From assembly GCF_900100755.1 (NCBI RefSeq), contig NZ_FNCI01000001.1, forward strand, positions 248,001 to 312,000: a DNA stretch of 64,000 nt, read 5' to 3'. The DNA comes from Onishia taeanensis. GTDB lineage: Bacteria > Pseudomonadota > Gammaproteobacteria > Pseudomonadales > Halomonadaceae. The notes under the pieces are model-generated. The model was not told where the DNA came from. It saw only the letters and a list, made by a program, of their open reading frames with translations, and did not search any database. Position 1 is the stretch's first letter. Each line of letters begins with the position of its first letter. A program made the position numbers and the translations under genes. Of this stretch, positions 8,034-46,340 are shown piece by piece.

Positions 8034-8309
8034 GGCACCCTCCTTGATATCAGGTTCGCCTCGGCATCGTCGTTTTTTCTATTTCCAATGCGTTGCCGGC
8101 ATGCTTCAAGTGGACATCTTCATACAGATAGCTTGGCGCATTCCGTACATCTTTACCTGCATAGCGTGTCTATTGCGTTGAAGGTTAGTCTGCGAGTAAT
8201 GGCGATCTTGAGCGATGTCAGGATTACGGCATCTGAATATCATCTGGCTCTGGTGCCGCGACGGAAGGCAGGCTAGGTTGTGAGGGTCACTTACCTTTAT
8301 GAGGTCGCC

Positions 8310-8570
8310 ATGCCCACATCCCGTTTCTCGCCGGAACTGTTCGAGGAAGTGAAGATCCTTGGCCTGTTTAACCTGACTACGACCCAAGAGGGCATCAAGG
8401 TACATTCGAATGCTGCGCCGGAGGCCATTGCGGCTGCCCGCCGACTTCATGACAAGGGCCTGATTACTCAGGATGACGGCGGCTATCTGACCAGTCTTGG
8501 CCACGAAGCCGCCCAGCACGCCCAGGACTTGTTGACCATCCTCGTGACCGAGAAGCAGCTGGCAAGCTAG
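8310..8570 (+). CDS. TIGR02647 family small protein
   Basis: The 86-aa product contains NLTTTQEGIKVHSNA and DGGYLTSLGHEAAQHAQ, which I recognise as the TIGR02647 family, sometimes labelled DNA-binding because of its winged-helix-like pattern. Its function is not established. An upstream in-frame GTG (8280) lacks a good ribosome-binding site; the ATG at 8310 follows GAGG and starts at the usual family position. A strong terminator follows directly. It is the last complete host gene before the prophage. Confidence 0.85.
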   Translation: MPTSRFSPELFEEVKILGLFNLTTTQEGIKVHSNAAPEAIAAARRLHDKGLITQDDGGYLTSLGHEAAQHAQDLLTILVTEKQLAS

Positions 8571-8591
8571 TTCGCTTCAGGTGTCTCCATG

Positions 8592-8630
8592 CGCCCCGCC
8601 CTGCCACGCTGCAGGGTGGGGCGTTTGGTT
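8592..8630 (+). terminator. Strong intrinsic terminator after the TIGR02647 gene
   Basis: A 13-bp stem, 8592-8604 with 8611-8623 (one G-T wobble) and a six-base loop, is followed by TTTGGTT. It begins 22 bases after the stop codon. Confidence 0.85.
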
Positions 8631-8935
8631 GTGATCGCGGCATCTTCAGGCCTGCAGCCGGCTGTGACTCTCTTGCTTGGCATCGCTTGGCCATGCGCAG
8701 CAGCTGATTAGTTCGCTTGGAAAGACGTCGATATCGTCGTCCTGTCGTCGAGGTAGGACCTGCTCGCCATTAAGCCGCCGTGCTATGCTCGCGTGCGTTC
8801 TGCCCAAGGCCGGTTGGCCTGGTCGATGATGACGCCGATGCATGATGCCAAGGCCCGTTCGAGCCGATCGCCTTGGCAAGAACCGCCGATATTGCGTTAC
8901 CAAGAAAGAGTCCCCGGAAAGAGATCCCATTCCCG
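8631..8935. other. Original upstream region of the ion-channel gene
   Basis: About 300 bases with no convincing gene. The end of this stretch (GGAAAGAG shortly before 8936) looks like the ribosome-binding site that originally served the ion-channel gene, now 37 kb away at 46288. A promoter for that gene probably lies here, but I cannot place its -35 and -10 boxes with confidence. ORFs on the minus strand here show no protein-like features. Confidence 0.5.
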
Positions 8936-8988
8936 ATGAGCGAACCCTTCATCACCTGGCAGGCCCGCTTCGAGCGGCTGCGCGCCAA
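8936..8988 (+). repeat. attL, 53-bp direct repeat with attR
   Basis: These 53 bases are identical to 46288-46340. Identity stops one base before the ATG on the left and after GCGCCAA on the right. The sequence is the first 53 bases of the ion-channel coding region. The crossover lies somewhere inside it; the exact cut positions cannot be read from one sequence. Confidence 0.95.
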
Positions 8989-9043
8989 TAAAATATCTTC
9001 CTCATATAAAACAGAAGGTTATGTTTTTTTATTGTATGCATGA
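8936..9043 (+). pseudogene. 5' stub of the ion-channel gene left by prophage insertion
   Basis: The first 18 codons match the ion-channel gene at 46288; after that the frame runs into AT-rich phage DNA and stops at 9041, giving a 35-codon ORF. The host ribosome-binding site (GGAAAGAG) is still in front of it, so a short peptide may be made. It is not a functional channel. Confidence 0.85.
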
Positions 9044-9119
9044 GAACCCACTCATTTTTTTTCATATCAACATATTATACCCTCTTTGTACGTCGTATTT
9101 TCCACGTTGAGGAGCAGTT

Positions 9120-10649
9120 ATGGACGACATGCTTTTATACCCCACTTATGAGGAAGTGGTGGGGGCTTTGGGAGAAAAAGGAATTCATCACAAGTTGATG
9201 GAGTTTGTCGAGCCAGTACGTGAAGATGAGAGTCCTATATCTCTAGTTGCTAGAAATTGCAGAATTTCAGGTAAGCTTTCTTTTGTCCTAGGAGCGCCAG
9301 GAAAAGGTAAGTCAACATTTATAAATTCACTTCAGTGGAAGAGGCATGTCCGTATATCTTCCGTTGTTAATATTGACGCAACTGATTGTTTTGAGAGTCT
9401 GGCTGGCTTGTTTCAGAAAATCAGAGAATTTGGTGGCCAAGCTAAAAGTGAATCTTGGAAAGGGCCGCTATGTATATCCATTGATTATCTGGAAGATTTG
9501 AGTGGTTTTGATGAAGGCGAGATTCGTTCTTTTTTTAGAAATTTGAATGGTTTTTTGCGGAATCATCCAGTCATGATGTTGTGGCCGGTTACGGAAGAAG
9601 ATGCGGCGCGTGAGATGGTTAGGTATACGCAAGAGATTTCCGGGACTCTTTTTGTTCAAGGGCAAGAGGTTACACGTTTAAATGGTCCAAGTTTTTATAA
9701 TTTTCCAGAAATAGTTTCGCGAAGTATATCGATACTTAACGATGGGAGAGATCTCTCCGATTTTGGTTTGACTTTTGATGATCTAGTTGATGTTCAGGAA
9801 CAGGTGATGAATGATTATCCTTATCAAAAGCGTACGATGAGGCTTTATATACATCATGTGATTCAAAGGTGGCAAAAAAATAGTGAATACCATCAAAGGG
9901 TTAAATCGAAGCTACCCAAGCCGACAGAGATATGGTTCGTTTTCCCTTACCCTGATGCGGAGAAGGTGGTTGGTGGGTTCGTGAAGCGCTCCAAACGAGT
10001 GCAAGATAATTGGGGGGTTGTATTTGACAAGCTTTATGAATATTCGGTTGATGGTCAGCGGAGTAGAGATTGGACCCCTAGCCGTCTTCAGATGGCTATA
10101 TCTGGTGCATTTAAAACACGTATAATGTATCTACCAACTAACGCAATTGTTTCATGTGTATATGCTTATTCTCCTTCGGAGGCGTTGAAGAGAGAAATTT
10201 CTTTTCCGAGCACACCACGGCAATGGGCTCAAAAGGGTCAGGCGAAAAAATTTTTCAAAAACACTCCTGTCTATAAACAATTGATCGATGAGCCAATTAC
10301 AGCCGGTATGAGGCGAAGTGGCCCAGCTCTCAAAGCAGTAGAGCTGTCAAGTACTGGGTACGATAAATTAGTTTCATGGGCTGCTTCTGGGAGCTCTGGG
10401 AGTGATAAACATATTAATTGGGCTGTTGCCTCTTTGCTCTCTGATATTGTCGGTCACCCTATGTCTAGTGATAAGGCTCATCCTTGGCTGGATAATATAA
10501 TTCCTGATATTTTTGTTGACCTTCCCGATAAGCAGGTGTGCATTGAGTTCCACTATACTGGTAAAGATGCTTCTCATGTTATTGCCAATTATGTATTGAA
10601 AAAGCTTCATGTCTATATGAAAGAAATTGAGGCTTTGTCCGCAGAATAG
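9120..10649 (+). CDS. AT-rich cargo protein: P-loop ATPase with nuclease-like C-terminus
   Basis: I do not recognise the 509-aa protein as a named family. It has a Walker A motif GAPGKGKST (58-66), a hydrophobic Walker B-like strand LCISIDYLED (117-126), and a C-terminal PD-x(12)-ExH pattern (462-478) followed by a helix, which resembles the core of PD-(D/E)xK nucleases with H in place of K. That last point is inference. GAGGAG precedes the ATG. Base composition is far richer in A/T than the phage or host. It lies between attL and the integrase and points away from the integrase operon, a common site for cargo such as anti-phage genes. It ends 5 bp from the convergent integrase gene. Confidence 0.75.
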   Translation: MDDMLLYPTYEEVVGALGEKGIHHKLMEFVEPVREDESPISLVARNCRISGKLSFVLGAPGKGKSTFINSLQWKRHVRISSVVNIDATDCFESLAGLFQKIREFGGQAKSESWKGPLCISIDYLEDLSGFDEGEIRSFFRNLNGFLRNHPVMMLWPVTEEDAAREMVRYTQEISGTLFVQGQEVTRLNGPSFYNFPEIVSRSISILNDGRDLSDFGLTFDDLVDVQEQVMNDYPYQKRTMRLYIHHVIQRWQKNSEYHQRVKSKLPKPTEIWFVFPYPDAEKVVGGFVKRSKRVQDNWGVVFDKLYEYSVDGQRSRDWTPSRLQMAISGAFKTRIMYLPTNAIVSCVYAYSPSEALKREISFPSTPRQWAQKGQAKKFFKNTPVYKQLIDEPITAGMRRSGPALKAVELSSTGYDKLVSWAASGSSGSDKHINWAVASLLSDIVGHPMSSDKAHPWLDNIIPDIFVDLPDKQVCIEFHYTGKDASHVIANYVLKKLHVYMKEIEALSAE

Positions 10650-10654
10650 GCCCT

Positions 10655-11815
10655 TTATATTGCGGATGGATCCACTTTCGGAATGCTCAGGTCATACACA
10701 TCCAGCATTCTCGCACTCCGGTGCCCACTGGCTTCCTGCTTATCATGCCGGTTGCCTTGGGTGTCGGTGATCCCCCGGCGCTTCAGATCGTGAAGCCCGA
10801 ATTTCTCCTCAGCGGTAATGACACCGCTTTCCACCGCAGCTTTCATCATTCGGAACCAGGCGCTATCCAGCCCGTAACGGGTCAAGGCGTCGCCGCCCTG
10901 GGCAACGAATAATGGTCGGTACTCTGCTGATAGCGGTACCGCGCGGCCGCGCTTTTCCCACCGGGCGTTGCGAACTGCGACGGCTGCATCCCATGCCGCG
11001 CGCAATCGTGGCGACCAGCGCACGACGTTATCCCGTGACCCTTTCCTGCGGTTGGTCAGAATGCCTTCTTCCAGGGCGTTGGCGTCTGTGAGGGTGATCA
11101 CCTCGATCGCGCGTAGGCGACAGAGGTAGGCGATCTCGATCAATGGCCACATAAACGGGGCGACTGCACCGGTTTCTGTGCTGCGGCCTTGGCTGCGTTC
11201 TTGGCAAAAGGCCGTGATGCGGGAAAGGGTCAGCTTCTCTGGTAGGCGCCGGCGCTTTCTCTCTTGAGCCGATTCAACGGTGGTGGCTGGATTCGACTGG
11301 CAGTGACCACGATTGATGCCCCAGCGATATACACGTCTCAGGTAGGCGGCGACATGGTTGGCGGTTGAGGGCGTGCCCTTATCAGCGAGCGAGTCGACCA
11401 GCCGTTGGACAACGGGGGCGGTGATCTTTCTGCGCTCGAGGTCGACAAAAGGCATGCCGAGCCGAGTGGTGGTCTTTTCCAGTACAGAGAACGAGTATTC
11501 GTAACTCTTGCGGGTCTTCACCGCCAAGCGCTTGAACTGGACGCTGGCATGGAACTGCTCACACAGCCAGCGCAGCGTGTGGTGCCCGGTATTCTTCCGT
11601 TCCTGCATGATCTGATGCAGGTCGGCGAGGGTGGCCCGGTGGGTCGCTACGTTGCTGCGACGCCGGCGGCCTGTCTCATCGGTGGAGAGGGTGTACCAAT
11701 TGCCGCGCCCACGGTGATCGAAATAGACCGAATCCGGCAGCTTGGTCTGATCGATGTGGCTGGGTATATGGGGGTTGTGGCCGCGCTTACGGCCACGTTT
11801 GGCGGGTGGTTTCAT
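10655..11815 (-). CDS. int: Tyrosine-family phage integrase
   Basis: The 386-aa protein has a SAM-like core-binding domain (about 75-175) and a C-terminal catalytic domain. Visible catalytic residues are R235 (in LRAIEV), H342 and R346 (in LHDLKRR), H365 (in SGHRSA) and Y374 (in LDVYDL). It should insert and excise the prophage at the 53-bp repeat. It is the last gene of the leftward operon, and its ATG overlaps the stop of the DUF4224 gene (ATGA). Unlike most integrase genes it is not next to the att site: a 1.5-kb cargo gene lies between. Confidence 0.95.
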   Translation of the reverse strand: MKPPAKRGRKRGHNPHIPSHIDQTKLPDSVYFDHRGRGNWYTLSTDETGRRRRSNVATHRATLADLHQIMQERKNTGHHTLRWLCEQFHASVQFKRLAVKTRKSYEYSFSVLEKTTTRLGMPFVDLERRKITAPVVQRLVDSLADKGTPSTANHVAAYLRRVYRWGINRGHCQSNPATTVESAQERKRRRLPEKLTLSRITAFCQERSQGRSTETGAVAPFMWPLIEIAYLCRLRAIEVITLTDANALEEGILTNRRKGSRDNVVRWSPRLRAAWDAAVAVRNARWEKRGRAVPLSAEYRPLFVAQGGDALTRYGLDSAWFRMMKAAVESGVITAEEKFGLHDLKRRGITDTQGNRHDKQEASGHRSARMLDVYDLSIPKVDPSAI

Positions 11816-12027
11816 AGGATGGTGTCGGGATCATAGACGTTGTCATTCTGCGCCTGTGGTGTCAGGCCGCCGGCCTTATTTATCAGGTCCAGCGTCGTCC
11901 AGGGACCAAGGCGCCCCCGAAAGACCGTTACCCCCTGTTCAACCAGGCAGCGTTCGATGTCGGCCGCGCGCTGGTAGCCCGTAATCGTGCGCAGCTCTTC
12001 ACAGCTTAATACAGATGAATTAGCCAC
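11812..12027 (-). CDS. DUF4224 family small protein beside the integrase
   Basis: The 71-aa product contains LSCEELRTITGYQRAADIER, the hallmark of DUF4224, a short HTH-like family often found directly before phage integrases; an excisionase or directionality role is suspected, not shown. I chose the GTG at 12027 because AGGAG lies about ten bases upstream; a longer ORF to 12132 has an atypical, Arg-rich start and overlaps the upstream gene more. The stop overlaps the integrase start. Confidence 0.8.
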   Translation of the reverse strand: MANSSVLSCEELRTITGYQRAADIERCLVEQGVTVFRGRLGPWTTLDLINKAGGLTPQAQNDNVYDPDTIL

Positions 12028-12370
12028 GGCTTGGCATCTCCTGTGCCGTAATGCCAACGCAGATCCTGTTCCCGTAATCCTTGAATAGTGCGCAGCTAAG
12101 CCGCCCGGCGGGGGTGGCATGTAGCTGCGCAATCACGGCACGGCGCTCGGTGTCGGTCAGCGGCCTGGCTTTCGGGCGACGGCTAGCGGCACGGCGGCAG
12201 CCTTCCTGACGCGCGGCGTTGACAGGCTTGACCAGGTCGGCACCGCGCAAGCCTTTGCCATAGCGGGTGCGCAGCACGCTCACCTCGAAGTCGTGGCGGT
12301 CGGCAAGCTCGGGGATCGAGACCTGGTCGCCGGTCTCAGGGTCGACGACGAAGATGCGAGCGGTGGTCAT
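12020..12370 (-). CDS. Hypothetical phage protein, basic
   Basis: The 116-aa product is Arg-rich. Residues 1-50 (FVVDPETGDQVSIPELADRH) look like a phage helix-turn-helix-type segment, suggesting DNA binding, but I do not recognise a family. It overlaps its neighbours on both sides by 4-8 bases within the leftward operon. Confidence 0.7.
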   Translation of the reverse strand: MTTARIFVVDPETGDQVSIPELADRHDFEVSVLRTRYGKGLRGADLVKPVNAARQEGCRRAASRRPKARPLTDTERRAVIAQLHATPAGRLSCALFKDYGNRICVGITAQEMPSRG

Positions 12371-25884: not shown

Positions 25885-26403
25885 ATGGCTGGCAACCGGA
25901 ACTCCGGACGTAAGGCGTTGCCGGCGAACGTCCACGCACTGCGCGGCAACCCGAGCAAGAAGGCATCGCACGAGCTGACCGGCGGGCATGGCGACCAGCC
26001 CCAGGTCGCGGCGGAGATTCCGCCGTGCCCGGCGTTCCTGACCAAGGACGCTAAGGGCGAGTGGAAGCGAATAGCCAAGGATCTGCAGACCCTTGGCCTG
26101 ATAAGCAAGCTCGATCGCGGCGAGCTGGCCGTCTACTGCCAGGCCTGGGCTGACTGGAAGGTCGCCCGGGAGAAGATCGCCGCATTGGAAGACTCTGGCT
26201 TCGTCGAGACAACTCCCAGCGGCTACAAGCAGATGAGCGCCTGGATGCAGCTGGCGAACCGTGCCGAAGAACGCATGCGCAAAGCGGGTAACAGCTTCGG
26301 CCTGAACCCGTCGGCCCGAGCCAGCCTGGGCGCCGGTACGGTGACACAAGGAGAGCTGTTCCCCAATGAGCAAGCGGAGACCGCCCGAAAGTACGGCCTG
26401 TGA
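25885..26403 (+). CDS. Terminase small subunit, P27 family
   Basis: The 172-aa product begins MAGNRNSGRKALPANVHALR and contains RGNPSKK, CPAFL and later LGLNPSAR-like GLNPSARASLG, typical of the P27 small terminase family. It recognises phage DNA ends for packaging. GGAGG precedes the ATG at 25885; an in-frame ATG 21 bases earlier is weaker. It overlaps the large subunit gene by 38 bases in another frame. Confidence 0.88.
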   Translation: MAGNRNSGRKALPANVHALRGNPSKKASHELTGGHGDQPQVAAEIPPCPAFLTKDAKGEWKRIAKDLQTLGLISKLDRGELAVYCQAWADWKVAREKIAALEDSGFVETTPSGYKQMSAWMQLANRAEERMRKAGNSFGLNPSARASLGAGTVTQGELFPNEQAETARKYGL

Positions 26404-28099
26404 TGACCGTGTCACAGCCTACGCCCAGGCGGTGGTGGCCGGTGAGTTGATTGCCGGTCACCAGGTTCGCGATGCCTGCGCTCGCCACCTGCGCGACCTG
26501 GAAAATGGCCCGGATCGTGGCCTGCATTGGGACCTCGACGCTGCCAACCATGCCATCGGTTTCTTCGAGGACATCCTGCGACTCAACGGCGGCCAGTACG
26601 AGGGCCAGCCGTTCGAGGTGCTGCCCTGGCAGGCGTTCATCGTCGGCAGCCTGTTCGGCTGGATGGGCGAAGATGGGTATCGCCGCTTCCGCGTCGCCTA
26701 CGTGGAAACGGCCAAGGGCTCCGGAAAGTCGCCGCTCGCAGCCGGGATCGGCCTCTACGGCCTGGTCGCAGACAACGAGCAGCGCGCCGAGATCTACGCC
26801 GCGGCCACCAAGAAGGACCAGGCCCAGATCCTGTTCCGTGATGCGGTGGCCATGGTGGACCAGTCGCCGTACCTGGCACCGGTGGTCCCCAAGAGCGGGG
26901 CCACTGGCAAGGAATACAACCTCGCTTTCCACAAAACTGGGTCGTTCTTCCGCACGGTGAGCGCCGACGACGGCCAGTCTGGGCCTCGGCCGCACATCGC
27001 GCTGCTAGATGAGATTCACGAGCACAAGACCCCGCTGGTCGTGGAGATGATGCGGGCCGGTACAAAAAGCCGGCAGCAAGCGCTGATCTTCATGATCACC
27101 AACAGTGGCACCGACCGCCTCACGGTGTGTTGGGACTACCACGACTACGCCTGCAAGGTGGCCAACGGTGGACTGGAAGACGACAGCTTCTTCGGCTTTG
27201 TCTGTGCACTAGATCAGGGCGACGACCCCTTCGAGGATGAGCAGTGCTGGTACAAGGCCAATCCGTCGCTTGCCTATGGCATCCCCGGCCTGAAGTACCT
27301 GCGCGAGCAGGTCACCCAGGCGAGAGGCATGCCCAGCAAGGAAGCCACTGTCCGGCGCTTGAATTTCTGTCAGTGGGTGCAGGCCGACAACCCGGCAATA
27401 AGCCGCGATGCCTGGCTAGCCACCCAGGACGCCGACTTTGATGTCGCGCTGCTGGCGGGCCGACGCTGCTGGGCCGGGCTAGACCTCTCCAGCACCCAGG
27501 ACCTCACGGCCCTGGTGCTGATGTTCGAGCCCTGCGAGCACGACCCGGTGTGGCGCATGGTGCCCTGGTTCTGGCTGCCCGAGGAGGGCCTGGCCAAGAA
27601 AGGCGAACAGGACCGCGTGCCCTACCTAGCCTGGCTGAAAGCCGGCCACCTTGACACCACCCCAGGCCGCGCGATCAACAAGCGACACGTGCTGCATCAG
27701 CTGGTCGACGTTGCCGAGCGCTTCGACCTACAAGGGATCGGCTTCGATCGCTGGCGGGTCGAGGACCTGATCGCCCTGATCGACGACGAAGGCCTGAGCC
27801 TGCCCCCGCTGGTACCCGTGGGGCAGGGCTTCAAGGACATGAGCCCGGCGGTCGACGAGTTCGAGCGCCGGCTGATCAACGCGGAGCTGCATCACCAGGG
27901 GCACCCGGTGCTGACCTGGTGCGCCGCCAACGCCATTTACTCCGAAGATCCTGCTGGCAATCGCAAGGTGGATAAGAAGAAAGCCACCGGCCGCGTCGAC
28001 GGGGTCGTCGCTGCGTTGATGGCAACGGCACTGACGCTGGGCGAGCAGATTGATAACGACGACATCACCGACTTCCTAAGGGCGCCGATCATCGCATGA
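26366..28099 (+). CDS. Terminase large subunit
   Basis: The 577-aa product is the packaging motor. The N-terminal ATPase has Walker A ETAKGSGKSPLA (about 113-124) and Walker B IALLDEIHEH (about 210-219). The C-terminal RNase H-like nuclease has its first Asp in GLDLSSTQD (near 372) and a late Asp in GRVDGVVA (near 550). It is of the HK97-like Terminase_1 type and overlaps the portal gene by four bases. Confidence 0.95.
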   Translation: MSKRRPPESTACDDRVTAYAQAVVAGELIAGHQVRDACARHLRDLENGPDRGLHWDLDAANHAIGFFEDILRLNGGQYEGQPFEVLPWQAFIVGSLFGWMGEDGYRRFRVAYVETAKGSGKSPLAAGIGLYGLVADNEQRAEIYAAATKKDQAQILFRDAVAMVDQSPYLAPVVPKSGATGKEYNLAFHKTGSFFRTVSADDGQSGPRPHIALLDEIHEHKTPLVVEMMRAGTKSRQQALIFMITNSGTDRLTVCWDYHDYACKVANGGLEDDSFFGFVCALDQGDDPFEDEQCWYKANPSLAYGIPGLKYLREQVTQARGMPSKEATVRRLNFCQWVQADNPAISRDAWLATQDADFDVALLAGRRCWAGLDLSSTQDLTALVLMFEPCEHDPVWRMVPWFWLPEEGLAKKGEQDRVPYLAWLKAGHLDTTPGRAINKRHVLHQLVDVAERFDLQGIGFDRWRVEDLIALIDDEGLSLPPLVPVGQGFKDMSPAVDEFERRLINAELHHQGHPVLTWCAANAIYSEDPAGNRKVDKKKATGRVDGVVAALMATALTLGEQIDNDDITDFLRAPIIA

Positions 28100-29415
28100 G
28101 CACTCAGACGAAAAAGCCGGGCCGTGTGAAGTCGGCAATCTTGGGCTGGTTGGGCGTGCCGCTCGATCTGACCAACGACGCCTTCTGGAAAGCGTGGGCC
28201 GGTAGCGCTAACGCCGCTGGCCAGACGGTCAATCAGGAAACCGTGATGTCGCTCTCGGCGGCCTGGGCCTGTACCCGGCTGATTTCCGAAACGGTCGGCA
28301 CACTACCGCTGCATCTTTACGAACGCACCTCGAGCGGCCGGCGTCGCGCAGTGAACCATCCGCTCTACTCAGTATTGAATCGCAGCCCCAATGCCGAATC
28401 CACGCCGGCCACGTTATGGGAGTCGATGACCGCCTCGATTCTCCTGCGAGGCAACGGCTTCGGCGAAAAGCAGCGGCTGGGTAACCGGGTGGTTGGCATC
28501 CGATTTCTGACGCCGAGCCGTCTGGGGGCCCAGAGACTGGCCAACGGCGACTATCGCCTCCATTACACCGAGGAAGGCGGTAGGCCGAGGCCTGTAGCGG
28601 AGCGCGACCTAGTCCACATTCCTGGCTTCTCGCTGGACGGCAAGTGGGGGCTCTCCGCTATTCAGTACGGCGCCGGCGTGTTCGGCAGCGCATTGGCCGC
28701 CAACAACGCCGCCAACAGCACCTTCGAGAAAGGGCTGTCGCCGACTGTAGCCTTCAGCATGGACAAGGTGCTGAACAAAGAGCAGCGGGCCGAATTCCGC
28801 GAGAATCTTCAGGACATCACCGGCGCCATCAACGCCGGCAAGAGCCCGCTGCTCGAGGGTGGCATGAAGGCCGATACCATCGGCATCAAGCCAAGCGATG
28901 CCCAGTTGCTGGAGAGTCGGTCCTTCTCGGTCGAGGAAGTCTGTCGCTGGTTTCGCGTCGACCCCTCGATGGTTGGCCACGGCAGCAAGGACAGTAACTG
29001 GGGCACCGGCCTCGAGCAGAAGCTGATTGCCTTCCTAACCTTCACACTGAGGCCCTGGCTGACGCGCATTGAGCAGGCCATCAACAAATACCTGCTTAGC
29101 CCGCAGGACCAGCTGCGCTATTACGCCGAGTTCTCCATCGAGGGACTGCTGAGGGCTGATAGTGCTGCTCGGGCCAGCTTCTACTCGGTGATGGTCAACA
29201 ACGGGATCATGACCCGCGACGAGGTTCGACAGTTGGAGAACCTGCCGATCATGGGCGGCAACGCCGACGTGCTCACCGTGCAGACCGCGATGGCACCGCT
29301 CGACAGTCTTGGCCAAGCCAACGACGGCGATACCGCACGCGCCGCCCTGGCGGCCTGGCTCAACCAGGGCCAGCACGCTCAGCCGAGCCAGCACGACAAC
29401 ACCGATAACGACTGA
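28096..29415 (+). CDS. Portal protein, HK97 family
   Basis: The 439-aa product shows the HK97 portal pattern: SAAWACTRLISETVGTLPLH near 55-75, NPNAESTP-like SPNAESTPATLWES, LIPFL-like RFLTPSRL, and ARASFYSVMVNNGIMTRDEV near 355. It forms the dodecameric DNA gate at one capsid vertex. Ser/Gln/Asn-rich C-terminal tail is typical. Confidence 0.93.
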   Translation: MSTQTKKPGRVKSAILGWLGVPLDLTNDAFWKAWAGSANAAGQTVNQETVMSLSAAWACTRLISETVGTLPLHLYERTSSGRRRAVNHPLYSVLNRSPNAESTPATLWESMTASILLRGNGFGEKQRLGNRVVGIRFLTPSRLGAQRLANGDYRLHYTEEGGRPRPVAERDLVHIPGFSLDGKWGLSAIQYGAGVFGSALAANNAANSTFEKGLSPTVAFSMDKVLNKEQRAEFRENLQDITGAINAGKSPLLEGGMKADTIGIKPSDAQLLESRSFSVEEVCRWFRVDPSMVGHGSKDSNWGTGLEQKLIAFLTFTLRPWLTRIEQAINKYLLSPQDQLRYYAEFSIEGLLRADSAARASFYSVMVNNGIMTRDEVRQLENLPIMGGNADVLTVQTAMAPLDSLGQANDGDTARAALAAWLNQGQHAQPSQHDNTDND

Positions 29416-29430
29416 CCTCCGGAGTTACCC

Positions 29431-30306
29431 ATGACGCTCAAGACGCTGCCCACTCTGCCGGCGGCTCGCCCGCGCGCGAACGTCCAATTCGACCTCTCGC
29501 CCCGGGCGATGCAGGCCTGGAACCCCGGCATTCGCTCGGCGATGGATGACGAAGAATCCACCATCACCATCTACGACCCCATCGGTGAAGACATGTGGGG
29601 TGACGGTGTCACCGCCAAGCGCATCGCCGGCGCTCTGCGCCGCATCGGCAGCGGCAACGACGTCACCGTCAACATCAATAGCCCGGGCGGTAACTACTTC
29701 GAGGGTCTGGCCATCTACAACCTGCTGCGCGAGCACCAGGGCCGCGTGGTCGTCAACGTTATGGGCATTGCCGCCTCGGCAGCCTCGGTGATCGCCATGG
29801 GTAGCGACGAGCTGCGCATCGGTCGCGCCGCCTTCTTGATGGTGCACAACGCCTGGGTCGGGGTGATGGGTAACCGCCTCGAGCTGCGCGAAGTCGCCGA
29901 TTGGCTCGAGCCTTTCGACGCTGCGGCCGCCGATCTTTATCACGTTCGTACTGGAATACCGCAGGAGTCCATCGTCGCTCAGCTCGACGCCGAGACATGG
30001 ATCGGCGGCGGTGAGGCCGTGACCGCCGGCTGGGCCGATGGACTTCTTACGGCGGACGAGGTCGAGGAAGGCGGCGCCCAGGCATCCCATCGCCTCGCTG
30101 CAAAGGAGCTGGACTTGGCCATGGCCAAGGCCGGCATCCCGCGCAGCCGCCGTCGCGAGCTGATGCAAGAGTTCAAGTCCGGCACGCCTAGCGCTGCCGG
30201 CGGCGGTACGCCGCGCGCTACCGCGACCGATACGCCCAGCGCTGTCGAACACGACCTGGAGCCACTCCCGAAACTGGAATTCCCTGGAGGAATGTCTAAT
30301 GCGTAA
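29431..30306 (+). CDS. Prohead protease, ClpP-like (S14)
   Basis: The 291-aa product has a ClpP fold over about 30-210: INSPGGNYFEGLAIYN near 83, the Ser in GIAASAASVIAMG (near 114) and His in MVHNAW (near 139). It matures the capsid by trimming the coat protein. The C-terminal 60 residues are Ser/Thr/Ala-rich, perhaps a scaffold-like tail. It overlaps the capsid gene by eight bases. Confidence 0.92.
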   Translation: MTLKTLPTLPAARPRANVQFDLSPRAMQAWNPGIRSAMDDEESTITIYDPIGEDMWGDGVTAKRIAGALRRIGSGNDVTVNINSPGGNYFEGLAIYNLLREHQGRVVVNVMGIAASAASVIAMGSDELRIGRAAFLMVHNAWVGVMGNRLELREVADWLEPFDAAAADLYHVRTGIPQESIVAQLDAETWIGGGEAVTAGWADGLLTADEVEEGGAQASHRLAAKELDLAMAKAGIPRSRRRELMQEFKSGTPSAAGGGTPRATATDTPSAVEHDLEPLPKLEFPGGMSNA

Positions 30307-31693
30307 CCTGAAACTCACCCCGGCTCTGGTGCTGGGTATCCTCGCGCTGGCGGCCGCCATCCCCATGGCCTTCGGCGTTTCCCTGCCTACCGTCGGCGGG
30401 GCGGCCGCGCTGGTCGCCCTGACCGGCCTGCTGGTCGAGCCCGGCCAAGCCCGTTACCACGGCATGCGCGGCCAGCTCGGGCAGGTCGGTGGCGCCAATG
30501 TCGAGCAGGAATATAAGAAGGTCCAGCAGGATCTGAAGGACGTCGGCGACCAGCTCAAGCAGTTCGCCGAGCAGTCTCAGGCCGACCTCAAGCAGCATCG
30601 GCAACTGTCCGAGGAGTCCAAGGAGAAGGTCGATCAGCTGCTGACCACCCAGGGCGAACTGAACGCACGCCTCGAGGCCGCCGAGCAGGCCATGGCCAAC
30701 AACCGCGGCGGCGCCCCTGCATCCATCCTGACCATGGGCGCCCGTGTGGCCCAGAGCGAGGAGTTCACCACACGCGCAGCTCAGTTGGCGCAGGGCGGCA
30801 GGGGGTCGTTCAGCGTCGGCGTGCAGCAAGCGCTTACCACCGCCGAGGCCGGCGGTGAGCTTAGCCAGCCCGAGCGTGTACCCGGCATGGTCACTCCACC
30901 GCAGCAGCGACTGTTCCTGCGCGACCTGCTCAACTGGGGCGACACCGCCTCCAACTCAGTGGAGTTCGTGCGCGAAACCGGCTTCACCAACGCTGCTGAT
31001 GTGGTCTCTGAGAACCCCTCCGCCGGCAAACCGGAGAGCAGCATCCAGTTCGAGATGGCCCAGGCGTCCGTGGCGACCATTGCCCACTGGATTCCCGCCT
31101 CGCGTCAGGTGCTGTCCGACGCCGGCATGCTGCAGAGCTACATCGATGGCCGCCTGCGCTATGGGCTCAAGCTCAAGGAAGAGGCGCAGTTGCTCAAGGG
31201 CAGCGGCGTGGGGCTTAACATCAACGGCCTCTACACCCAGGCGTCTCAGTACGCCAACCCCGGTGTCACGGTCAGCGATGACTCGATGATTGATCGTCTG
31301 CGCATCGCCATGTTGCAGGTGCAGCTGGCCGAGTATGCCGCCGACGGCATCGTGCTCAACCCCATCGATTGGACCAGCATCGAGCTGACCAAGGATAGCC
31401 AGGGCCGCTACATCTGGGCTAACCCCAACGCCGTGAACGGCCCGACTCTGTGGGGCATGCCGGTGGTGGCCACTCAGTCGCTGGACCAGGACGAGTTCAT
31501 GACCGGGGCTTTCCAGATGGCGGCGCAAGGCTGGGATCGCGAGGATACCACCGTCACCGTCTCCACCGAGGACCGGGACAACTTCATCAAAAACATGGTC
31601 ACCATCCTCTGTGAAGAGCGTGTGGCGCTGACCGTGTATCGCCCCGAGGCCTTCGTGAAGGGTGACTTCACCATTGGCTCATCCGGCGCCTGA
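30299..31693 (+). CDS. Major capsid protein, HK97 family, with hydrophobic N-terminal extension
   Basis: The 464-aa product has a coiled-coil delta domain (about 65-130, QDLKDVGDQLKQFAEQ) then the HK97 coat fold (from about 180: LFLRDLLNWGDTASNSVEFV, ASRQVLSDAGMLQSYI, GLYTQASQY, near the end GDFTIGSSGA). Before the coiled coil lie two hydrophobic stretches (about 8-25 and 30-43) that look membrane-like, unusual for a coat protein. GGAGGA at good spacing supports the 30299 start, so the extension seems real; the protease should remove it. Confidence 0.92.
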   Translation: MRNLKLTPALVLGILALAAAIPMAFGVSLPTVGGAAALVALTGLLVEPGQARYHGMRGQLGQVGGANVEQEYKKVQQDLKDVGDQLKQFAEQSQADLKQHRQLSEESKEKVDQLLTTQGELNARLEAAEQAMANNRGGAPASILTMGARVAQSEEFTTRAAQLAQGGRGSFSVGVQQALTTAEAGGELSQPERVPGMVTPPQQRLFLRDLLNWGDTASNSVEFVRETGFTNAADVVSENPSAGKPESSIQFEMAQASVATIAHWIPASRQVLSDAGMLQSYIDGRLRYGLKLKEEAQLLKGSGVGLNINGLYTQASQYANPGVTVSDDSMIDRLRIAMLQVQLAEYAADGIVLNPIDWTSIELTKDSQGRYIWANPNAVNGPTLWGMPVVATQSLDQDEFMTGAFQMAAQGWDREDTTVTVSTEDRDNFIKNMVTILCEERVALTVYRPEAFVKGDFTIGSSGA

Positions 31694-31714
31694 TCCGGTG
31701 AAATAGGCAACCCA

Positions 31715-31748
31715 CCGGGGCCCGTCGACAGTCAGGCCCCGGCTTTTT
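31715..31748 (+). terminator. Intrinsic terminator after the capsid gene
   Basis: CCGGGGCC (31715-31722) pairs with GGCCCCGG (31735-31742), then CTTTTT. It probably lets the capsid gene be expressed above the following genes. Confidence 0.85.
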
Positions 31749-31760
31749 GAGGATGACTCC

Positions 31761-32024
31761 ATGCCAACTCAAGTTGAAGCCCTGACAGGGTTTGATCACC
31801 ACGGCAGTCGTCGCCGGGGTGACAAGTTTCCCACGTCTGACCAGACGGCAAAGGATCTAGTACGTGCGGGCCTGGTTCGGATTGTCACCGACCGCCCCGA
31901 GAAGGCCGCGGGCAAACCGTCGTCTGCATCGCCAGCGGCCCAAGCCTCACCGCAGAAGACGTCCAGCTCGTCAAAAGGTGGCGGGAAAAAGCAGCCGCAG
32001 AAGCCGGCGGGCGCTGCGTCATAG
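31761..32024 (+). CDS. Hypothetical head protein with low-complexity tail
   Basis: The 87-aa product has a compact start (RRRGDKFPTSDQTAKDLVRA, GLVRI) of a kind often found after phage capsid genes, then a Ser/Lys/Pro/Ala-rich tail. The tail region overlaps in another frame with coding-looking sequence of the next gene. Confidence 0.7.
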   Translation: MPTQVEALTGFDHHGSRRRGDKFPTSDQTAKDLVRAGLVRIVTDRPEKAAGKPSSASPAAQASPQKTSSSSKGGGKKQPQKPAGAAS

Positions 32025-32044
32025 TCACCAACAACACCTATCGG

Positions 32045-32479
32045 ATGTGCCCCTGGGCCGATGTGCTCTACGCCATGGATCGTAAGTGGTGGCAGGTGAT
32101 GCAGCCGGTATTCCACGGCGAATGCGTCAGCATCGCCGGCAACATCATCGGGGTGCAAAAGACCCGCGCCCCCAAGGGCGGCAACAGCGGCGCCGGCGCG
32201 ATGCTGCTGGCCCGACACCGGGGGGCCTCGCGCATCATTCTGCTGGGTTACGACTGCCAGTATGGGCGGGATGGCAAACGCCATTGGCACGGCGACCACT
32301 GCAAGGGGCTCGGCAATGCCAACAGCCTACCTAAGTTCTACGGCCAATTTCAGGAAGCCGCCGGCATGCTGGCCGACGTTGAGGTGATCAATGCCAGCCG
32401 GGAGACGGCGTTGGATTTGTGGCCGCGTATGAGTCTGGAGGAGGCCCTGGATGGTGAGGCGCGTGTGTGTGCTGCGTAG
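32045..32479 (+). CDS. GPSL-motif (DUF115/MAF-like) protein, start unclear
   Basis: From the first ATG the product is 144 aa (ADVLYAMDRKWW, GNSGAGAMLLARHRGASRII, LLGYDCQYG). The same frame is open back to 31841, and its translation from about 31910 (TVVCIASGPSLTAEDVQLV, then VIVTNNTYRMCP) is clearly protein-like and carries the GPSL motif of MAF/DUF115 glycosyltransferase-like proteins. No ATG, GTG, TTG or CTG exists there. The true start may be non-canonical, reached by frameshift from the 31761 gene, or lost. Function likely sugar-related, by motif only. Confidence 0.6.
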   Translation: MCPWADVLYAMDRKWWQVMQPVFHGECVSIAGNIIGVQKTRAPKGGNSGAGAMLLARHRGASRIILLGYDCQYGRDGKRHWHGDHCKGLGNANSLPKFYGQFQEAAGMLADVEVINASRETALDLWPRMSLEEALDGEARVCAA

Positions 32480-33104
32480 TGGCGGCGAGTTCGGCCCCGA
32501 GCATGTGCAGTGGCTGGCCGGCAGGGTCGACTTGAACCACTGGCTGGCCCGGCACGACGACAATGACATTCAGTGCCTGAGCGACGTGGAAGTTCGCGGC
32601 GTGCCTACGATCCCGCTGGCCCATGGCTGGCCGGGATGGTGGGCCAAGATGGAGCTGTTCCGGCCTGACCTGCCCGGCGACCTGATCTACCTAGACCTGG
32701 ATACCGTGGTGCTGTACGACCTTGAGCCGCTTATCGCCGCCGCCGCCGGGCGCACCACGCTGCTCTCTGACTTCTACCGCCCGGCCCAGCCGGCCAGCGG
32801 GCTGATGTACATCGCCGAGCGCGATAAGGCGCGGGTATGGGCGCACTGGATGCGCGACCCCGCCGGCCACATGGCTCGGGCGCGCACCACCGCCTGCTGG
32901 GGCGACCAGGGCATCCTGCGCCAAGTGCTGGGCGATGGCGTGCAGCGTTGGCAGGACGTGGCCCAGGGCCAGGTGGTCAGCTACAAGGCGCATTGCCGCC
33001 AGGGCATCCCAGCCGCCGCCCGCGTCGTCTGCTTTCACGGCAACCCGCGGCCCTGGGCCGCCCGAGACAGCAACCGGAACAACTGGATACCGCCGCTATG
33101 CTGA
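32451..33104 (+). CDS. GT-A-type glycosyltransferase-like protein
   Basis: The 217-aa product has YLDLDTVVLYDLEPL near 83 with a DxD motif, the metal/nucleotide-sugar site of GT-A glycosyltransferases, followed by a segment LLSDFYRPAQPASGLMYI and CWGDQGILRQVL, typical of glycogenin-like folds. It overlaps the GPSL gene by 29 bases. It may modify phage particles or the host surface; no target can be read from sequence. Confidence 0.75.
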   Translation: MVRRVCVLRSGGEFGPEHVQWLAGRVDLNHWLARHDDNDIQCLSDVEVRGVPTIPLAHGWPGWWAKMELFRPDLPGDLIYLDLDTVVLYDLEPLIAAAAGRTTLLSDFYRPAQPASGLMYIAERDKARVWAHWMRDPAGHMARARTTACWGDQGILRQVLGDGVQRWQDVAQGQVVSYKAHCRQGIPAAARVVCFHGNPRPWAARDSNRNNWIPPLC

Positions 33105-33418
33105 TTCCACTTTCGACCATCAAGACGCATCTGCGGCTCGACCCAGACCCAGACTCCGAGTTGGATCCCGAGCTCGAGCGGCTGCTGGCCGTGGCCATCG
33201 ACCACGCCTCGCAGTACCTCGGCCGCTCGATACCCTGGGATGACCCGGCCACCAGCAGTTCCGAATCCATTCTGCCGGCTAGCGTCGAGCAAGCCCTGCT
33301 AATCCTGGTCGCCGAGTATTTCGAGAACCGCGAGCAGCACGTGACCGGAACCATCGTGCAGGAGAACCCCACCGTAGAGCGGCTTCTGCACTTCTACCGC
33401 ATCGGGCTGGGCATCTAA
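33098..33418 (+). CDS. Head-tail connector, gp6-like
   Basis: The 106-aa product (start MLIPLSTIKTHLRLD, then HASQYLGRSI, QALLILVAEYFENRE) fits the phage gp6-like connector that forms the adaptor ring under the portal. The ATG at 33098 overlaps the end of the glycosyltransferase gene; a longer ORF to 32837 is a shadow. Confidence 0.87.
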   Translation: MLIPLSTIKTHLRLDPDPDSELDPELERLLAVAIDHASQYLGRSIPWDDPATSSSESILPASVEQALLILVAEYFENREQHVTGTIVQENPTVERLLHFYRIGLGI

Positions 33419-33430
33419 GGAGACCGACCC

Positions 33431-33712
33431 ATGGCACAAGCCACCGTATTGGCCGCCGGCACCGCCGCGGCCACGTCCTCCGATATTGTCGTCGCCGCAG
33501 GCGAGAGCGTGACCGTGGCGATCTTCGCGGCCAGCGGTCGCCTACCGACCAGCGTGGCCTTCGCCGTCAAGCAGGACACCCCCGGCGGCGACAACGTGGT
33601 GGCCCGGTTGACCAACGTCGACCGGGCCACCGTGCTGGCCGGCCCAGGCACCTACCGCGTGCAGCGCCCGGCTTACGCGGGTACCGCCTTCGGCGTGTTC
33701 ACGGAGACCTGA
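33431..33712 (+). CDS. Hypothetical small structural protein
   Basis: The 93-aa product is Ala/Val/Thr-rich and beta-rich (VAAGESVTVAIFAASG, ATVLAGPGTYRVQRP), like small capsid or head-completion proteins found here in other phages. No family name assigned. Confidence 0.65.
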   Translation: MAQATVLAAGTAAATSSDIVVAAGESVTVAIFAASGRLPTSVAFAVKQDTPGGDNVVARLTNVDRATVLAGPGTYRVQRPAYAGTAFGVFTET

Positions 33713-33713
33713 C

Positions 33714-33842
33714 ATGGTGACTCGCAAGCCAACTCGCAAGCTGGCCAATCGCCCCGCGCACCGCCCCCCGGGGCCGGCCCGTAAGATCAGCGTGCCGGTG
33801 GTGCTGGCCAAGCCGACCAACCTGCAGGCCGAGGTCATCTGA
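33714..33842 (+). CDS. Very short basic protein
   Basis: The 42-aa product begins MVTRKPTRKLANRPAHRP and ends KPTNLQAEVI. It starts 2 bases after the previous stop and its TGA overlaps the next ATG, which supports expression. No function can be given. Confidence 0.5.
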   Translation: MVTRKPTRKLANRPAHRPPGPARKISVPVVLAKPTNLQAEVI

Positions 33843-34177
33843 TGCAGACCGGCAAGCTACGCCACCGGGTGACGATCGAGCGCCCCATGAGAACCCAGGA
33901 CCCGACAACGGGCGAGATGGTCTCCGGATGGTCAGCGGTGGCCACGGTTTGGGCGTCGATCGATCCGCTCAGCGCTCGCGAGTTCATCGCCGCACAGGCG
34001 GGGCAGTCGGAGATCTCGGCGCGCATCATCATCCGCCACCGCGAGGGCCTCGATGCCAGCATGCGCGTGGTCCAAGGCACGCGGATTTACAACATCCAGG
34101 GCGTGTTGGCCGACCCAAAGAGTGGCCGACACTACATTACCCTGCCAGTGAGTGAGGGCGTTACCGATGGAATCTGA
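33842..34177 (+). CDS. Head-tail adaptor (head closure) protein
   Basis: The 111-aa product (GKLRHRVTIERP, WASIDPLSAREFIAAQ, IIIRHREGLDASMRV, YNIQGVLADPKSGRHYI) is a standard phage head-tail joining protein of the SPP1 gp16 / HK97 type, which closes the head after packaging. Confidence 0.92.
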   Translation: MQTGKLRHRVTIERPMRTQDPTTGEMVSGWSAVATVWASIDPLSAREFIAAQAGQSEISARIIIRHREGLDASMRVVQGTRIYNIQGVLADPKSGRHYITLPVSEGVTDGI

Positions 34178-34385
34178 TCACATACACGTGCCGGAAGATG
34201 GACGTGGCCCGCGAGAGGTGTTCGTTGATGGTCACAAGATAGACAAGGTCTGCTATGCCGACACCCGCCGCGGAATCGTCGATTACTATCCGCAGCCCAT
34301 CAAGGTCGACAAGTGGGGTAAGCGTGTCATCTCGCGGCGGATGCGTGGACGGGTCGAAGTCGTTCAGGTGAGCCATGGCAACTGA
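34167..34385 (+). CDS. Hypothetical phage protein
   Basis: The 72-aa product (VFVDGHKIDKVCYADTRRG, YYPQPIKVDKWGKRV) resembles small proteins found between head closure and gp10-like genes. It overlaps both neighbours by about ten bases. Confidence 0.7.
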   Translation: MESDHIHVPEDGRGPREVFVDGHKIDKVCYADTRRGIVDYYPQPIKVDKWGKRVISRRMRGRVEVVQVSHGN

Positions 34386-34861
34386 CGGCCTGGCCGGCGA
34401 TATCCAGGGCCTCGAGGAAGTGCTGGGCAAGCTCAACGCTCTGGAGCAAGAACCTCGCAAGAAGTCGACGCGATTTGCCCTGCGCAAAGCGGCCAACATA
34501 GTCCGCGATAGCGTGCAGTCGCGAGCTCGCGAACTCGATGATCCCAATACATCGGAAAGCATCGCCGACAACGTCGTGGTGCGCTTCGACGGCAAGCACT
34601 TCCGGCAGACCGGTGACCTCAAGATGCGCGTCGGTATCCGCGGGGGGGGCTGCCTCCAAGGCCAAGAACGCCAAGAACCCGGGCGGTGATACCTACTACT
34701 GGCGCTTCCTGGAGTTCGGCACCGAGCATATGGCCGCCCAGCCCTTCATGCGGCCCGGCATGGACGAGAGTGTCGCCCCGGCGACTGATGAATTCGTCAC
34801 GCAATTCGATAAGGCCATCGTCCGCGCGATACGCCGGGCGAACAAGACGCTAGCGAGGTGA
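34375..34861 (+). CDS. HK97 gp10-like tail completion protein, split by a G8 frameshift
   Basis: The first frame (34375-34689) begins GDIQGLEEVLGKLNALEQEP and reads KMRVGIRGG up to a run of eight G (34642-34649). With seven G the frame would continue ASKAKNAKNPGGDTYYWRFL, EFGTEHMAAQPFMRPGM to the stop at 34861, giving a normal-length (about 161 aa) gp10-like tail-head joining protein. As written the first frame ends at 34689. Either one G is an assembly/sequencing error or the tract truly varies. Confidence 0.85.
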
Positions 34862-34862
34862 C

Positions 34863-35228
34863 ATGCTGCCACCCATCTTCACTATATGCGCCGCCGATGC
34901 GGCGGTCACGGCCCTGCTGGGCAGCGATCCGACGCGGCTCCACCCGTTTGGTAAGGCGCCCCAGCGGGTGGCCTTGCCCTATGCCGTGTGGCGCATCCCC
35001 ACCGGTGCGCCGGAGAACTACCTGGACAGCGCCCCGGACGTGGATCGCTGGCGGTTGCAGGTGGACGTGTACGCCGGGAATGGTAACGACGCCACGGCGG
35101 TGACCGAAGCCCTGCGCGATGCCATCGAGCCCCATGCTCACATCGTGCGCTGGGGGGATACGGACACCGACCCCGAGACCGGCAATCGCCATATCAGTTT
35201 TGACGTGAGCTGGCACGTGCCGCGCTAA
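34863..35228 (+). CDS. DUF3168 tail terminator-like protein
   Basis: The 121-aa product (MLPPIFTICAADAAVTALLG, RVALPYAVWRIPTG, WRLQVDVYAGNGNDA) matches DUF3168, the gpU-like tail-terminator group that caps the tail tube. A terminator follows. Confidence 0.88.
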   Translation: MLPPIFTICAADAAVTALLGSDPTRLHPFGKAPQRVALPYAVWRIPTGAPENYLDSAPDVDRWRLQVDVYAGNGNDATAVTEALRDAIEPHAHIVRWGDTDTDPETGNRHISFDVSWHVPR

Positions 35229-35252
35229 CCAGCCGCTGACCCGAGCCCATTT

Positions 35253-35274
35253 GCCCGCCATCGCGCGGGCTTTT
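35253..35274 (+). terminator. Intrinsic terminator before the tail tube gene
   Basis: GCCCGC (35253-35258) pairs with GCGGGC (35265-35270), then TTTT. Confidence 0.75.
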
Positions 35275-35299
35275 CTATGCCTGCAGTAGGAGCAACACA

Positions 35300-35785
35300 A
35301 TGAGCGTACTGGCCCAAGGCACCCACGTGTTTTTCATCGACGACAGCGGCAGCGTTCCTGTTGTGGTGAGACTCAAAAAGGTGACCGCCCTAAACCCTGG
35401 CACTGCGCCGGCGGCGCAACTCGACAAAACCAGCCTAGAGGACGAGCTCTATCGCCAATACCGTGCGGGCCTGCGCAACCCCGGCCAGGGCAGCATGTCG
35501 ATCAATGCCGACCCGTCCGAAGACAGCCACATCATCCTACACGGCCTCAGTGAGATGACCCCCTCGCCGACACTCAAGTGGGCCATCGGCTGGTCGGATG
35601 GCACGGGCGAACCGAGCGTGGACAGCGCCGGCGACTTCGACCTTCCCACGTCCCGCACCTGGTGCTCTTACGAAGCCTATGTGTCGGACTTCCCATTCGA
35701 CTTCCAGCTCGACGCGCTGGTCGCCACCGAGGTCGGCCTGCAGCGCTCTGGCGGTTTGACCTGGCAAAAAAAGGAAGTCGCTTAA
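35300..35785 (+). CDS. Major tail tube protein
   Basis: The 161-aa product (VLAQGTHVFFIDDSG, VTALNPGTAPAAQLDKTSLE, GQGSMSINADPSED, TLKWAIGWSDG) fits the tail tube proteins of lambda-like phages that stack as hexamers to form the tail. Position between the terminator protein and the G/GT genes is canonical. No tail sheath gene is present, consistent with a siphovirus. Confidence 0.87.
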   Translation: MSVLAQGTHVFFIDDSGSVPVVVRLKKVTALNPGTAPAAQLDKTSLEDELYRQYRAGLRNPGQGSMSINADPSEDSHIILHGLSEMTPSPTLKWAIGWSDGTGEPSVDSAGDFDLPTSRTWCSYEAYVSDFPFDFQLDALVATEVGLQRSGGLTWQKKEVA

Positions 35786-36223
35786 ATGAGCACCCTCAGT
35801 CTCGACTCCCTTCAGCAGCAGGGCGCCTTCACCGGCGCCCCGGTGGCGAAGACGATCACCTGGATGGTCGACGATCAGGAATACACCGCCACCGTCTACG
35901 TGCGCCGGCTAAGTTACCAGGCCGCCGTCCAGGACGTGCGTGCCTACAATGGCCAGGTGGACGGCATCGCCGGGCGCATCGCGTCCTGCATCTGCGACGA
36001 GCACGGCGCGTCGATCTTCACCCCCGAGGACATTACCGGTGAGGCCGACCCCGAGCGGGGCCCCCTGGGTCGCAGCCTGACGCTGGCCCTGCTCGGTGTT
36101 ATCGGCGAGGTGAACCCGTCGGGAAAGACGCCGAGCCGCTCAGCGACGAAGAGGAAATCTGGCACGAGCTCGTCCTCAACGGCATCGGCGGGCGCACGAT
36201 CGCCGAGGCGCAAGCGCGACTGA
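35786..36223 (+). CDS. Tail assembly chaperone (lambda G-like)
   Basis: The 145-aa zero-frame product folds like lambda gpG over about 1-115 (TITWMVDDQEYTATVYVRRL, AGRIASCICDEHG, LLGVIGEVNP); after the slippery site the zero-frame tail is Ser/Arg-rich. It helps build the tail around the tape measure. Confidence 0.85.
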   Translation: MSTLSLDSLQQQGAFTGAPVAKTITWMVDDQEYTATVYVRRLSYQAAVQDVRAYNGQVDGIAGRIASCICDEHGASIFTPEDITGEADPERGPLGRSLTLALLGVIGEVNPSGKTPSRSATKRKSGTSSSSTASAGARSPRRKRD

Positions 36224-36438
36224 GCTATGTCGAATTCCTGCGCTGGGCGGCTTACCGCCGCAAGCGCGGCAGCTTGCACCCAGGGCTGCGCGCCGACCGA
36301 GCCACTGCACCACTGACTCTGATGTACGCCAACACCCACCGCAATAAGGGTACCAGCGCGCACCAGATATGGGACTTCCTACCCCATGAGGAAGAACCGC
36401 CGATCACGATGGAACGGGCGATGGAAGCCTGGAGGTAG
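35786..36438 (+). CDS. G-T fusion chaperone made by -1 frameshift
   Basis: A -1 slip at GGGAAAG (36121-36127) continues into a frame reading DAEPLSDEEEIWHELVLNGI, then AQARLSYVEFLRWAAYRRKR and ends MERAMEAWR at the TAG 36436-36438. This gives a 217-residue GT protein, as in lambda, where gpGT recruits tail tube subunits to the tape measure. The T part has no start codon of its own. Confidence 0.87.
36121..36127 (+). promoter_or_regulatory. Programmed -1 frameshift site GGGAAAG
   Basis: In the zero frame the heptamer is read G GGA AAG, the exact phase for X XXY YYZ slippage and the same heptamer lambda uses between G and T. Confidence 0.9.
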
Positions 36439-36441
36439 CCG

Positions 36442-46287: not shown

Positions 46288-46340
46288 ATGAGCGAACCCT
46301 TCATCACCTGGCAGGCCCGCTTCGAGCGGCTGCGCGCCAA
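46288..46340 (+). repeat. attR, 53-bp direct repeat with attL
   Basis: Identical to 8936-8988. It is also the first 53 bases of the intact ion-channel gene, so the phage attP carries a working copy of this segment. Confidence 0.95.

Follow-up and report, generated by a model that had tools for sequence, protein, structure and literature searches.

An AT-rich cargo gene beside a prophage integrase of Onishia taeanensis encodes a predicted ATPase with a PD-(D/E)xK-like tail, a candidate for phage defence

What is a lone, AT-rich gene doing between the left attachment site and the integrase gene of a prophage? The question is raised by a 64,000-nucleotide stretch of the Onishia taeanensis genome (contig NZ_FNCI01000001.1, positions 248,001 to 312,000), called the window here, and all coordinates are positions in it unless another locus is named. 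The gene (9120-10649, + strand) has an intact open reading frame (ORF) of 509 codons with an ATG start, and a ribosome-binding site, AGGAG, was seen by eye five nucleotides before the start codon (9110-9114, +). Judged from its sequence and its relatives, the product, a P-loop ATPase of 509 amino acids with a C-terminal PD-(D/E)xK-like domain, is best assigned to a new and so far unnamed family in which a single gene encodes an AAA+/STAND-like ATPase with a PD-(D/E)xK-like tail. Our favoured reading, to which we give somewhat better than an even chance, is that it is a single-gene, ATPase-gated, PD-(D/E)xK-like effector carried as prophage cargo (a 'moron') and probably directed against phages. 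The gene has a GC content of 0.415, whereas the parts of the window at a distance of more than 1 kb have 0.608 and all 117 other gene-length tiles are richer in GC than the gene. A scan for sigma-70 promoters upstream of the gene found none, the four matches in the region being equal to the mean of shuffled sequences (3.9).

The prophage is about 37 kb long and is bounded by a 53-bp exact direct repeat (8936-8988 and 46288-46340). Among the same-strand exact words common to 8561-9120 and the rest of the window, the longest was this repeat and the next was 13 bp. The left attachment (att) site, attL (8936-8988, unstranded), has a core that repeats the initial 53 bp of the host gene starting at 46288, and the second core copy, attR (46288-46340, unstranded), forms the start of that gene (46288-47115). 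The six other genomes of the genus all match the right flank through the core. Five of them match the left flank past the core as well, so that the two flanks meet with an overlap of exactly 53 bp and the att site is unoccupied there; in the sixth (L045) the left-side match consisted of the core and 4 bp only. Genes for terminase, portal, head protease, major head and tape-measure proteins lie between the att copies, at 26366-38166. Between attL and the start of the cargo gene are 131 bp, and 5 bp separate the end of the cargo gene from the convergent gene of a tyrosine-type phage integrase (10655-11815, - strand), which matches Pfam PF22022 with 31.3 bits (cut-off 27) and is 54-56% identical to phage genes annotated as integrase or tyrosine recombinase. 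The initial annotation of this DNA had described an AT-rich gene opposed to the integrase and located between attL and the integrase, and the composition, the convergent orientation, the exact repeat and the two spacings bear this out.

The integrase-to-att stretch was compared with those of related elements. An integrase match at an expectation value (E) of at most 1e-60 was present in 24 of 275 genomes of the bacterial family, the window's own included, and the DNA past the integrase was compared for 18 of the 23 others, five partial matches being dropped. One of the 18, that of G001 (L070), carries the att of this window and one gave no transfer RNA (tRNA) call (L085), which leaves 16. In G001, the closest integrase relative, this att (83% over 54 positions) begins some 110 bp beyond the integrase and no gene intervenes, and in 16 of the other 17 elements a tRNA-Thr/Gln/Phe cluster follows the integrase. 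In eight elements about 90-150 bp separate the integrase stop from the nearest tRNA, and in the other eight the distance is 0.4-2.5 kb, with intervening ORFs (distances for L086 and L087 were counted from the end of the integrase match); the counterpart in the window is 1.67 kb between integrase and att. The tRNA is probably the att site of the 16 related elements. Since the distances vary, with or without ORFs, the stretch gains and loses genes. The cargo gene thus lies inside the att sites, outside the phage gene modules and at a place that varies between related prophages, as is expected of a moron. Defence hotspots adjoining integrases have been described for prophages of Vibrionaceae and Bacillus (PMC9122126). 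Other genes were seen in the same stretch of the related elements, at 1340-2933 of L071 and at about 1230-1667 of L072 (integrase orientation); in L071 they form a three-gene GC-poor block including an MqsA-like protein (by eye), and the stretch is also occupied by other genes in L073, L079, L081, L082, L086 and L087. These genes are a possible source of further defence candidates. The IMG/VR record of an element with an identical integrase (L026, IMGVR_UViG_2636416175_000003) begins at the integrase stop codon and leaves the cargo gene outside; the virus caller therefore trimmed this gene off the prophage, which shows that such callers can cut off cargo.

Such closeness to the integrase gene (5 bp) and to attL (131 bp) would also suit a gene for prophage maintenance or lysogeny conversion, one that acts on the DNA of the host or of its own phage (repair, superinfection by the same phage, control of excision) and not in general defence. 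We consider this unlikely, because G001, with the closest integrase and the same att, does without the gene; the surroundings of the relatives, described below, bear on it as well.

The window protein alone, used as a query, had no match in the plasmids, phages, genome_contigs or viral_contigs collections. Two of the 274 other genomes of the bacterial family gave a match: G170 encodes a genuine distant relative (27% identity over residues 32-225), and the second match was a fragment. The lead from G170 went on to a sister-family member on a Pseudarthrobacter plasmid, and to 11 sister-family loci in genome_contigs, including those of Aromatoleum, Xanthomonas, Paenibacillus, Brevibacillus, Streptomyces and Flavobacterium. 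A profile search of 390 genomes of the order found true relatives in G541 (47%) and G552 (41%); others came from G1044 (among 116 genomes of the family of G541), from G1403 (among 398 genomes of the phylum) and from a pair of Nostoc plasmids. The 369 genomes of the class yielded no further true relative, the two matches besides the window being short P-loop stretches in frames of more than 1000 amino acids; the 121 genomes of the family of G552 contained a relative in G552 only, and scans of viral_contigs with A3, A4 and L033 as queries found no relative. In total 15 relatives were usable, in two deep clades. By organism name they span at least five phyla and include a cyanobacterial and an actinobacterial plasmid, and in the genome draws searched the family is rare and scattered. 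Three true relatives cut by a contig end or broken in frame (L013, L019 and L020) were kept out of the alignments, as was the second Nostoc plasmid, which is 99.4% identical to the first. L003, a fragment with three stops, was rejected, and L011, L030 and L031 were set aside as short P-loop stretches within other open frames, together with Listeria phage matches of L033 that covered 15% of the query. L008 to L010 were also set aside, as by eye we take them to be RarA/MgsA-type AAA proteins.

The alignment of 16 sequences comprises clade A, to which the window protein belongs (six members, 20-47% identical to it), and the sister clade B (ten members), separated in the tree by a branch with support 1.000. 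The two clades share their order of parts and can be aligned over their whole length (hhalign, 99.2% over 429 columns). All ten clade-B proteins were matched by the clade-A profile at E 1e-12 to 1e-20, and all six clade-A proteins by the clade-B profile at E 2e-8 to 2e-3; among 3000 shuffled proteins added to these searches the best E was 0.057 for the first profile and 0.57 for the second. The result was unchanged without the last 115 residues, so most of the signal lies in the ATPase and middle regions. Ten columns are invariant, namely E11, G51, G61, G63, K64, R147, W155, G189, D463 and E476; three of these belong to the P-loop, and the last two are the acidic residues of the putative nuclease site. 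The P-loop is a canonical Walker A, GAPGKGKST (residues 58-66; 9291-9317, +), in which G61, G63 and K64 are the invariant positions, and it is followed by a Walker B-like strand, PLCISIDYLED (about residues 116-126; 9465-9497, +), with D122 in 14 of the 16 rows and E125 in 15. Both motifs had been called in the initial annotation and were found where it placed them. The window protein stays below the cut-off of every Pfam and NCBIfam model, and PADLOC and PHROGs gave noise or nothing. Searches of the PDB by sequence gave weak matches (best E 0.06). The AlphaFold model of one sister-clade member, with a predicted local distance difference test score (pLDDT) of 77, suggests an AAA+ fold.

This sister-clade model also speaks to the C-terminus. 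Its last elements run H361-373, H377-390, E394-402, E407-415, E423-428 and H441-456, and the end thus follows the alpha-beta-beta-beta-alpha order of secondary structure of PD-(D/E)xK domains. In the window protein the corresponding motif is PD at residues 462-463 and ExH at 476-478 (10503-10553, +), with 12 residues between D463 and E476, just as had been noted at the outset. The two acids of the PD-(D/E)xK superfamily are aligned and invariant in all 16 sequences and are suitably spaced. Residue 478 is lysine in all ten clade-B members, as in the classical ExK, and seven of the 16 weak Pfam matches listed for sister-clade C-termini are PD-(D/E)xK families. The architecture of an ATPase with a PD-(D/E)xK-like tail is well supported by sequence comparison at the level of the family, and the presence of such a tail in the window protein itself is moderately supported. 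The fusion of an ATPase with a nuclease-like tail proposed in the initial annotation is largely supported by homology (acids in 16/16, ExK in the sister clade), and the window protein's own structure model and the comparison of the tails, given below, did not strengthen it.

The surroundings of the relatives were examined for hints of function. At every one of the 16 loci the GC content of the gene is below that of the remaining sequence, the difference being 6 to 24 points. Twenty neighbours from 14 loci, picked by hand and by eye, were scanned with PADLOC, and eight of them, in seven loci, matched its models (6/10 in five of six loci and 2/10 in two of eight), most strongly an AbiK-like reverse transcriptase and PDC-S33. 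The Pseudarthrobacter plasmid carries TIR and caspase genes and an IS21 element near its clade-B gene. On the Nostoc plasmid (L036, 5031-7567) a RelA/SpoT-type gene that matches PDC-S33 follows the clade-A gene on the same strand after 47 bp, and the two possibly form an operon. In L035, the locus of G1044, two neighbours of the clade-A gene (9209-10672) share its AT-rich patch; one encodes a protein that by eye looks membrane-bound, the other a small protein resembling Mrr_cat (E 0.0023, which does not reach the cut-off). From the cargo position, the patchy spread and these hand-picked neighbours we infer that an anti-phage function is the most likely role, with a chance moderately above even.

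Insertion-sequence genes occur near two sister loci, as istA/istB is annotated about 1 kb from the gene of L004 and an IS30-like transposase is seen by eye near that of L025. TnsA is itself a PD-(D/E)xK nuclease, and a Foldseek search of the PDB with the sister-clade model matched the transposition ATPases MuB (rank 20) and TnsC (rank 44). The family could thus be a transposition-type ATPase fused to a TnsA-like nuclease, a remnant of machinery for selecting transposon targets. This is very improbable in our opinion. The MuB and TnsC matches are generic because other AAA+ proteins (ORC, FtsH and p97) rank higher, no transposase was found among the neighbours of the window gene given to Pfam, and the insertion sequences of L004 and L025 differ in kind and look independent by eye.

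Several results weigh against the reading of an ATPase-gated defence effector. Seven of the 16 loci contain at least one other gene-length tile that is equally AT-rich. By eye, the clade-A genes of L023, L024 and L038 stand alone among ordinary-looking genes, and one neighbour each of L023 and L024 gave no match in the PADLOC scan; the neighbour matches as a whole are suggestive only, being hand-picked and without a background rate. As for the tail, the structure prediction proposed earlier as a check gave no usable fold for the window protein (pLDDT 40), and no PD-(D/E)xK entry was recognised in either of two listings of 50 PDB matches for the sister-clade model. Nine of the 16 weak Pfam matches of sister-clade C-termini were to other families, including the best ones for L012 and L017, the C-termini of five clade-A members given to Pfam had no match, and the C-terminal piece of the window protein matched no Pfam family at E up to 5. 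When the last 115 residues alone were compared between the clades, hhalign gave a probability of 38% (E 3.3e-4, as a single comparison). In hmmsearch, one clade-B tail out of ten stood clear of shuffles (E 0.0024), and the clade-B tail profile ranked no clade-A tail above shuffles. Because the similarity of the tails alone is weak, their homology rests on position, on invariance and on the fact that hhalign pairs each acid (D, E) with its counterpart. Lastly, the window protein has H478 in place of the motif-III lysine of ExK, and the tail could for this reason be inactive. The same surroundings tell against the maintenance gene considered above, since L023, L024 and L038, L035, where the gene is part of an AT-rich patch on a long contig (by eye), and the plasmid locus L036 do not look tied to prophages.

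The missing lysine leads to another alternative, in which the PD-(D/E)xK fold is kept, catalysis is lost and the ATPase uses the tail to hold DNA. All six clade-A members lack the lysine, and residue 478 varies among them (H in four, T in two). On the other hand, D463 and E476 are invariant in all six at 20-47% identity, and a dead site would not need them. Residue 495, in the following helix YVLKKLHVY (residues 491-499; 10590-10616, +), is lysine in 6/6 members of clade A and threonine in 10/10 of clade B. For DUF506, DUF790 and DUF1626 such a move of the motif-III lysine into the next helix has been proposed, with threonine taking its place in one of these families (PMC1913061). A tail that only binds is improbable on these grounds. 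Other replacements at motif III, including FxH in Vsr, are known in the superfamily (PMC1189080). K495 was invariant already in the first five clade-A sequences, and the protein of G1403, found later with that profile, agrees; K430, N433, Y491, L493 and Y499 are also fixed in 6/6. The exchange of K478 for K495 is one change on one deep branch and therefore gives no independent statistical evidence of migration. The ExH/ExT motif together with K495 is consistent with the hypothesis of a migrated catalytic lysine, K495 being the candidate.

Returning to the ATPase-gated effector, the protein might work as follows. The N-terminal AAA+/STAND-like ATPase (about residues 1-240) would bind and hydrolyse ATP, and by analogy with other AAA+/STAND proteins it may oligomerise or change shape on a signal of a foreign phage, sensed perhaps by the middle region (about 240-420), which belongs to no known family. 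The C-terminal PD-(D/E)xK-like domain would thereby become able to cleave nucleic acid, with D463 and E476 holding the metal and K495, possibly aided by H478, substituting for the motif-III lysine. The incoming phage would be restricted or the infection aborted, to the benefit of the lysogen and the prophage. If so, a self-contained ATPase-nuclease joins the phage-defence candidates, from a family for which the searched copies of Pfam and PADLOC contained no dedicated model, and it allows a direct test of whether a PD-(D/E)xK enzyme can relocate its lysine under an unchanged driver ATPase. We also put forward, more tentatively and with a less than even chance, that these are previously undescribed, thinly but widely spread single-gene defence ATPases with two nuclease designs, a PD-ExK clade and a PD-Ex(H/T) clade whose lysine has moved to K495. 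One ATPase chassis would then drive both, which would be a natural experiment in active-site relocation.

Other genes of the window were characterized as well. A small DUF4224 gene (11812-12132, -; PF13986, 24.7 bits, cut-off 22) lies directly upstream of the integrase gene, and the gene at this position is annotated as excisionase or DUF4224 in both phage Dobby records. A prophage protein encoded at 16046-16660 matches phrog_3989, of unknown function (E 1.2e-61), and has a weak BRCT-like C-terminus. A DUF5669 gene (8280-8570) lies just outside attL and outside the prophage. The host gene at attR (46288-47115) resembles by eye what we take to be a bacterial voltage-gated sodium-channel-type protein; integration swaps its own upstream region for phage DNA, so lysogeny may change its expression.

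As compared with known systems, PADLOC-DB 2.0.0 listed a single model for the window protein, mad8, at E 0.015 and in the P-loop region, so the earlier remark that the gene matched no named defence system was right for this release. Keyword searches of the literature, in which few subscription journals were covered, recognised no paper on the family among the matches listed. The DUF1703 proteins, described in PMC1913061, are one point of comparison, and three of five sister-clade C-termini match PF08011 weakly (E 0.0018-0.016, below the cut-off). However, DUF1703 has RPRRFGKS as Walker A and ExK in place of GAPGKGKS and ExH, a PF09820 match was not listed, and for the window protein neither PF09820 nor PF08011 was listed at E up to 1. 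We assume here that DUF1703 is paired with the Pfam families AAA-ATPase_like (PF09820) and PDDEXK_9 (PF08011). Judged in this way, the window protein is outside DUF1703 and outside any PADLOC system tested. With DUF506, DUF790 and DUF1626 the family shares the replaced motif-III lysine and a conserved basic residue in the next helix, and DUF1626 has a threonine at motif III as L033 and L037 do (PMC1913061); it differs in having no Pfam match, in being fused to an ATPase and in the histidine of four of the six clade-A members. The sister-clade protein of L002 matches nSTAND1 (PF20703) around Walker B (residues 79-187, E 7.9e-5), but its 22.9 bits are below the cut-off of 27.1 and no repeat sensor was seen. 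In Avs proteins, which are of the STAND type, the effector is N-terminal, whereas it is C-terminal in this family. There is also a likeness in design to the PDC-S candidates, Gabija, PARIS and McrBC, which also couple an ATPase to a nuclease-like effector and show a mobile, patchy spread; the parts of Gabija, PARIS and McrBC come in a different order, and the window protein unites its own in a single chain.
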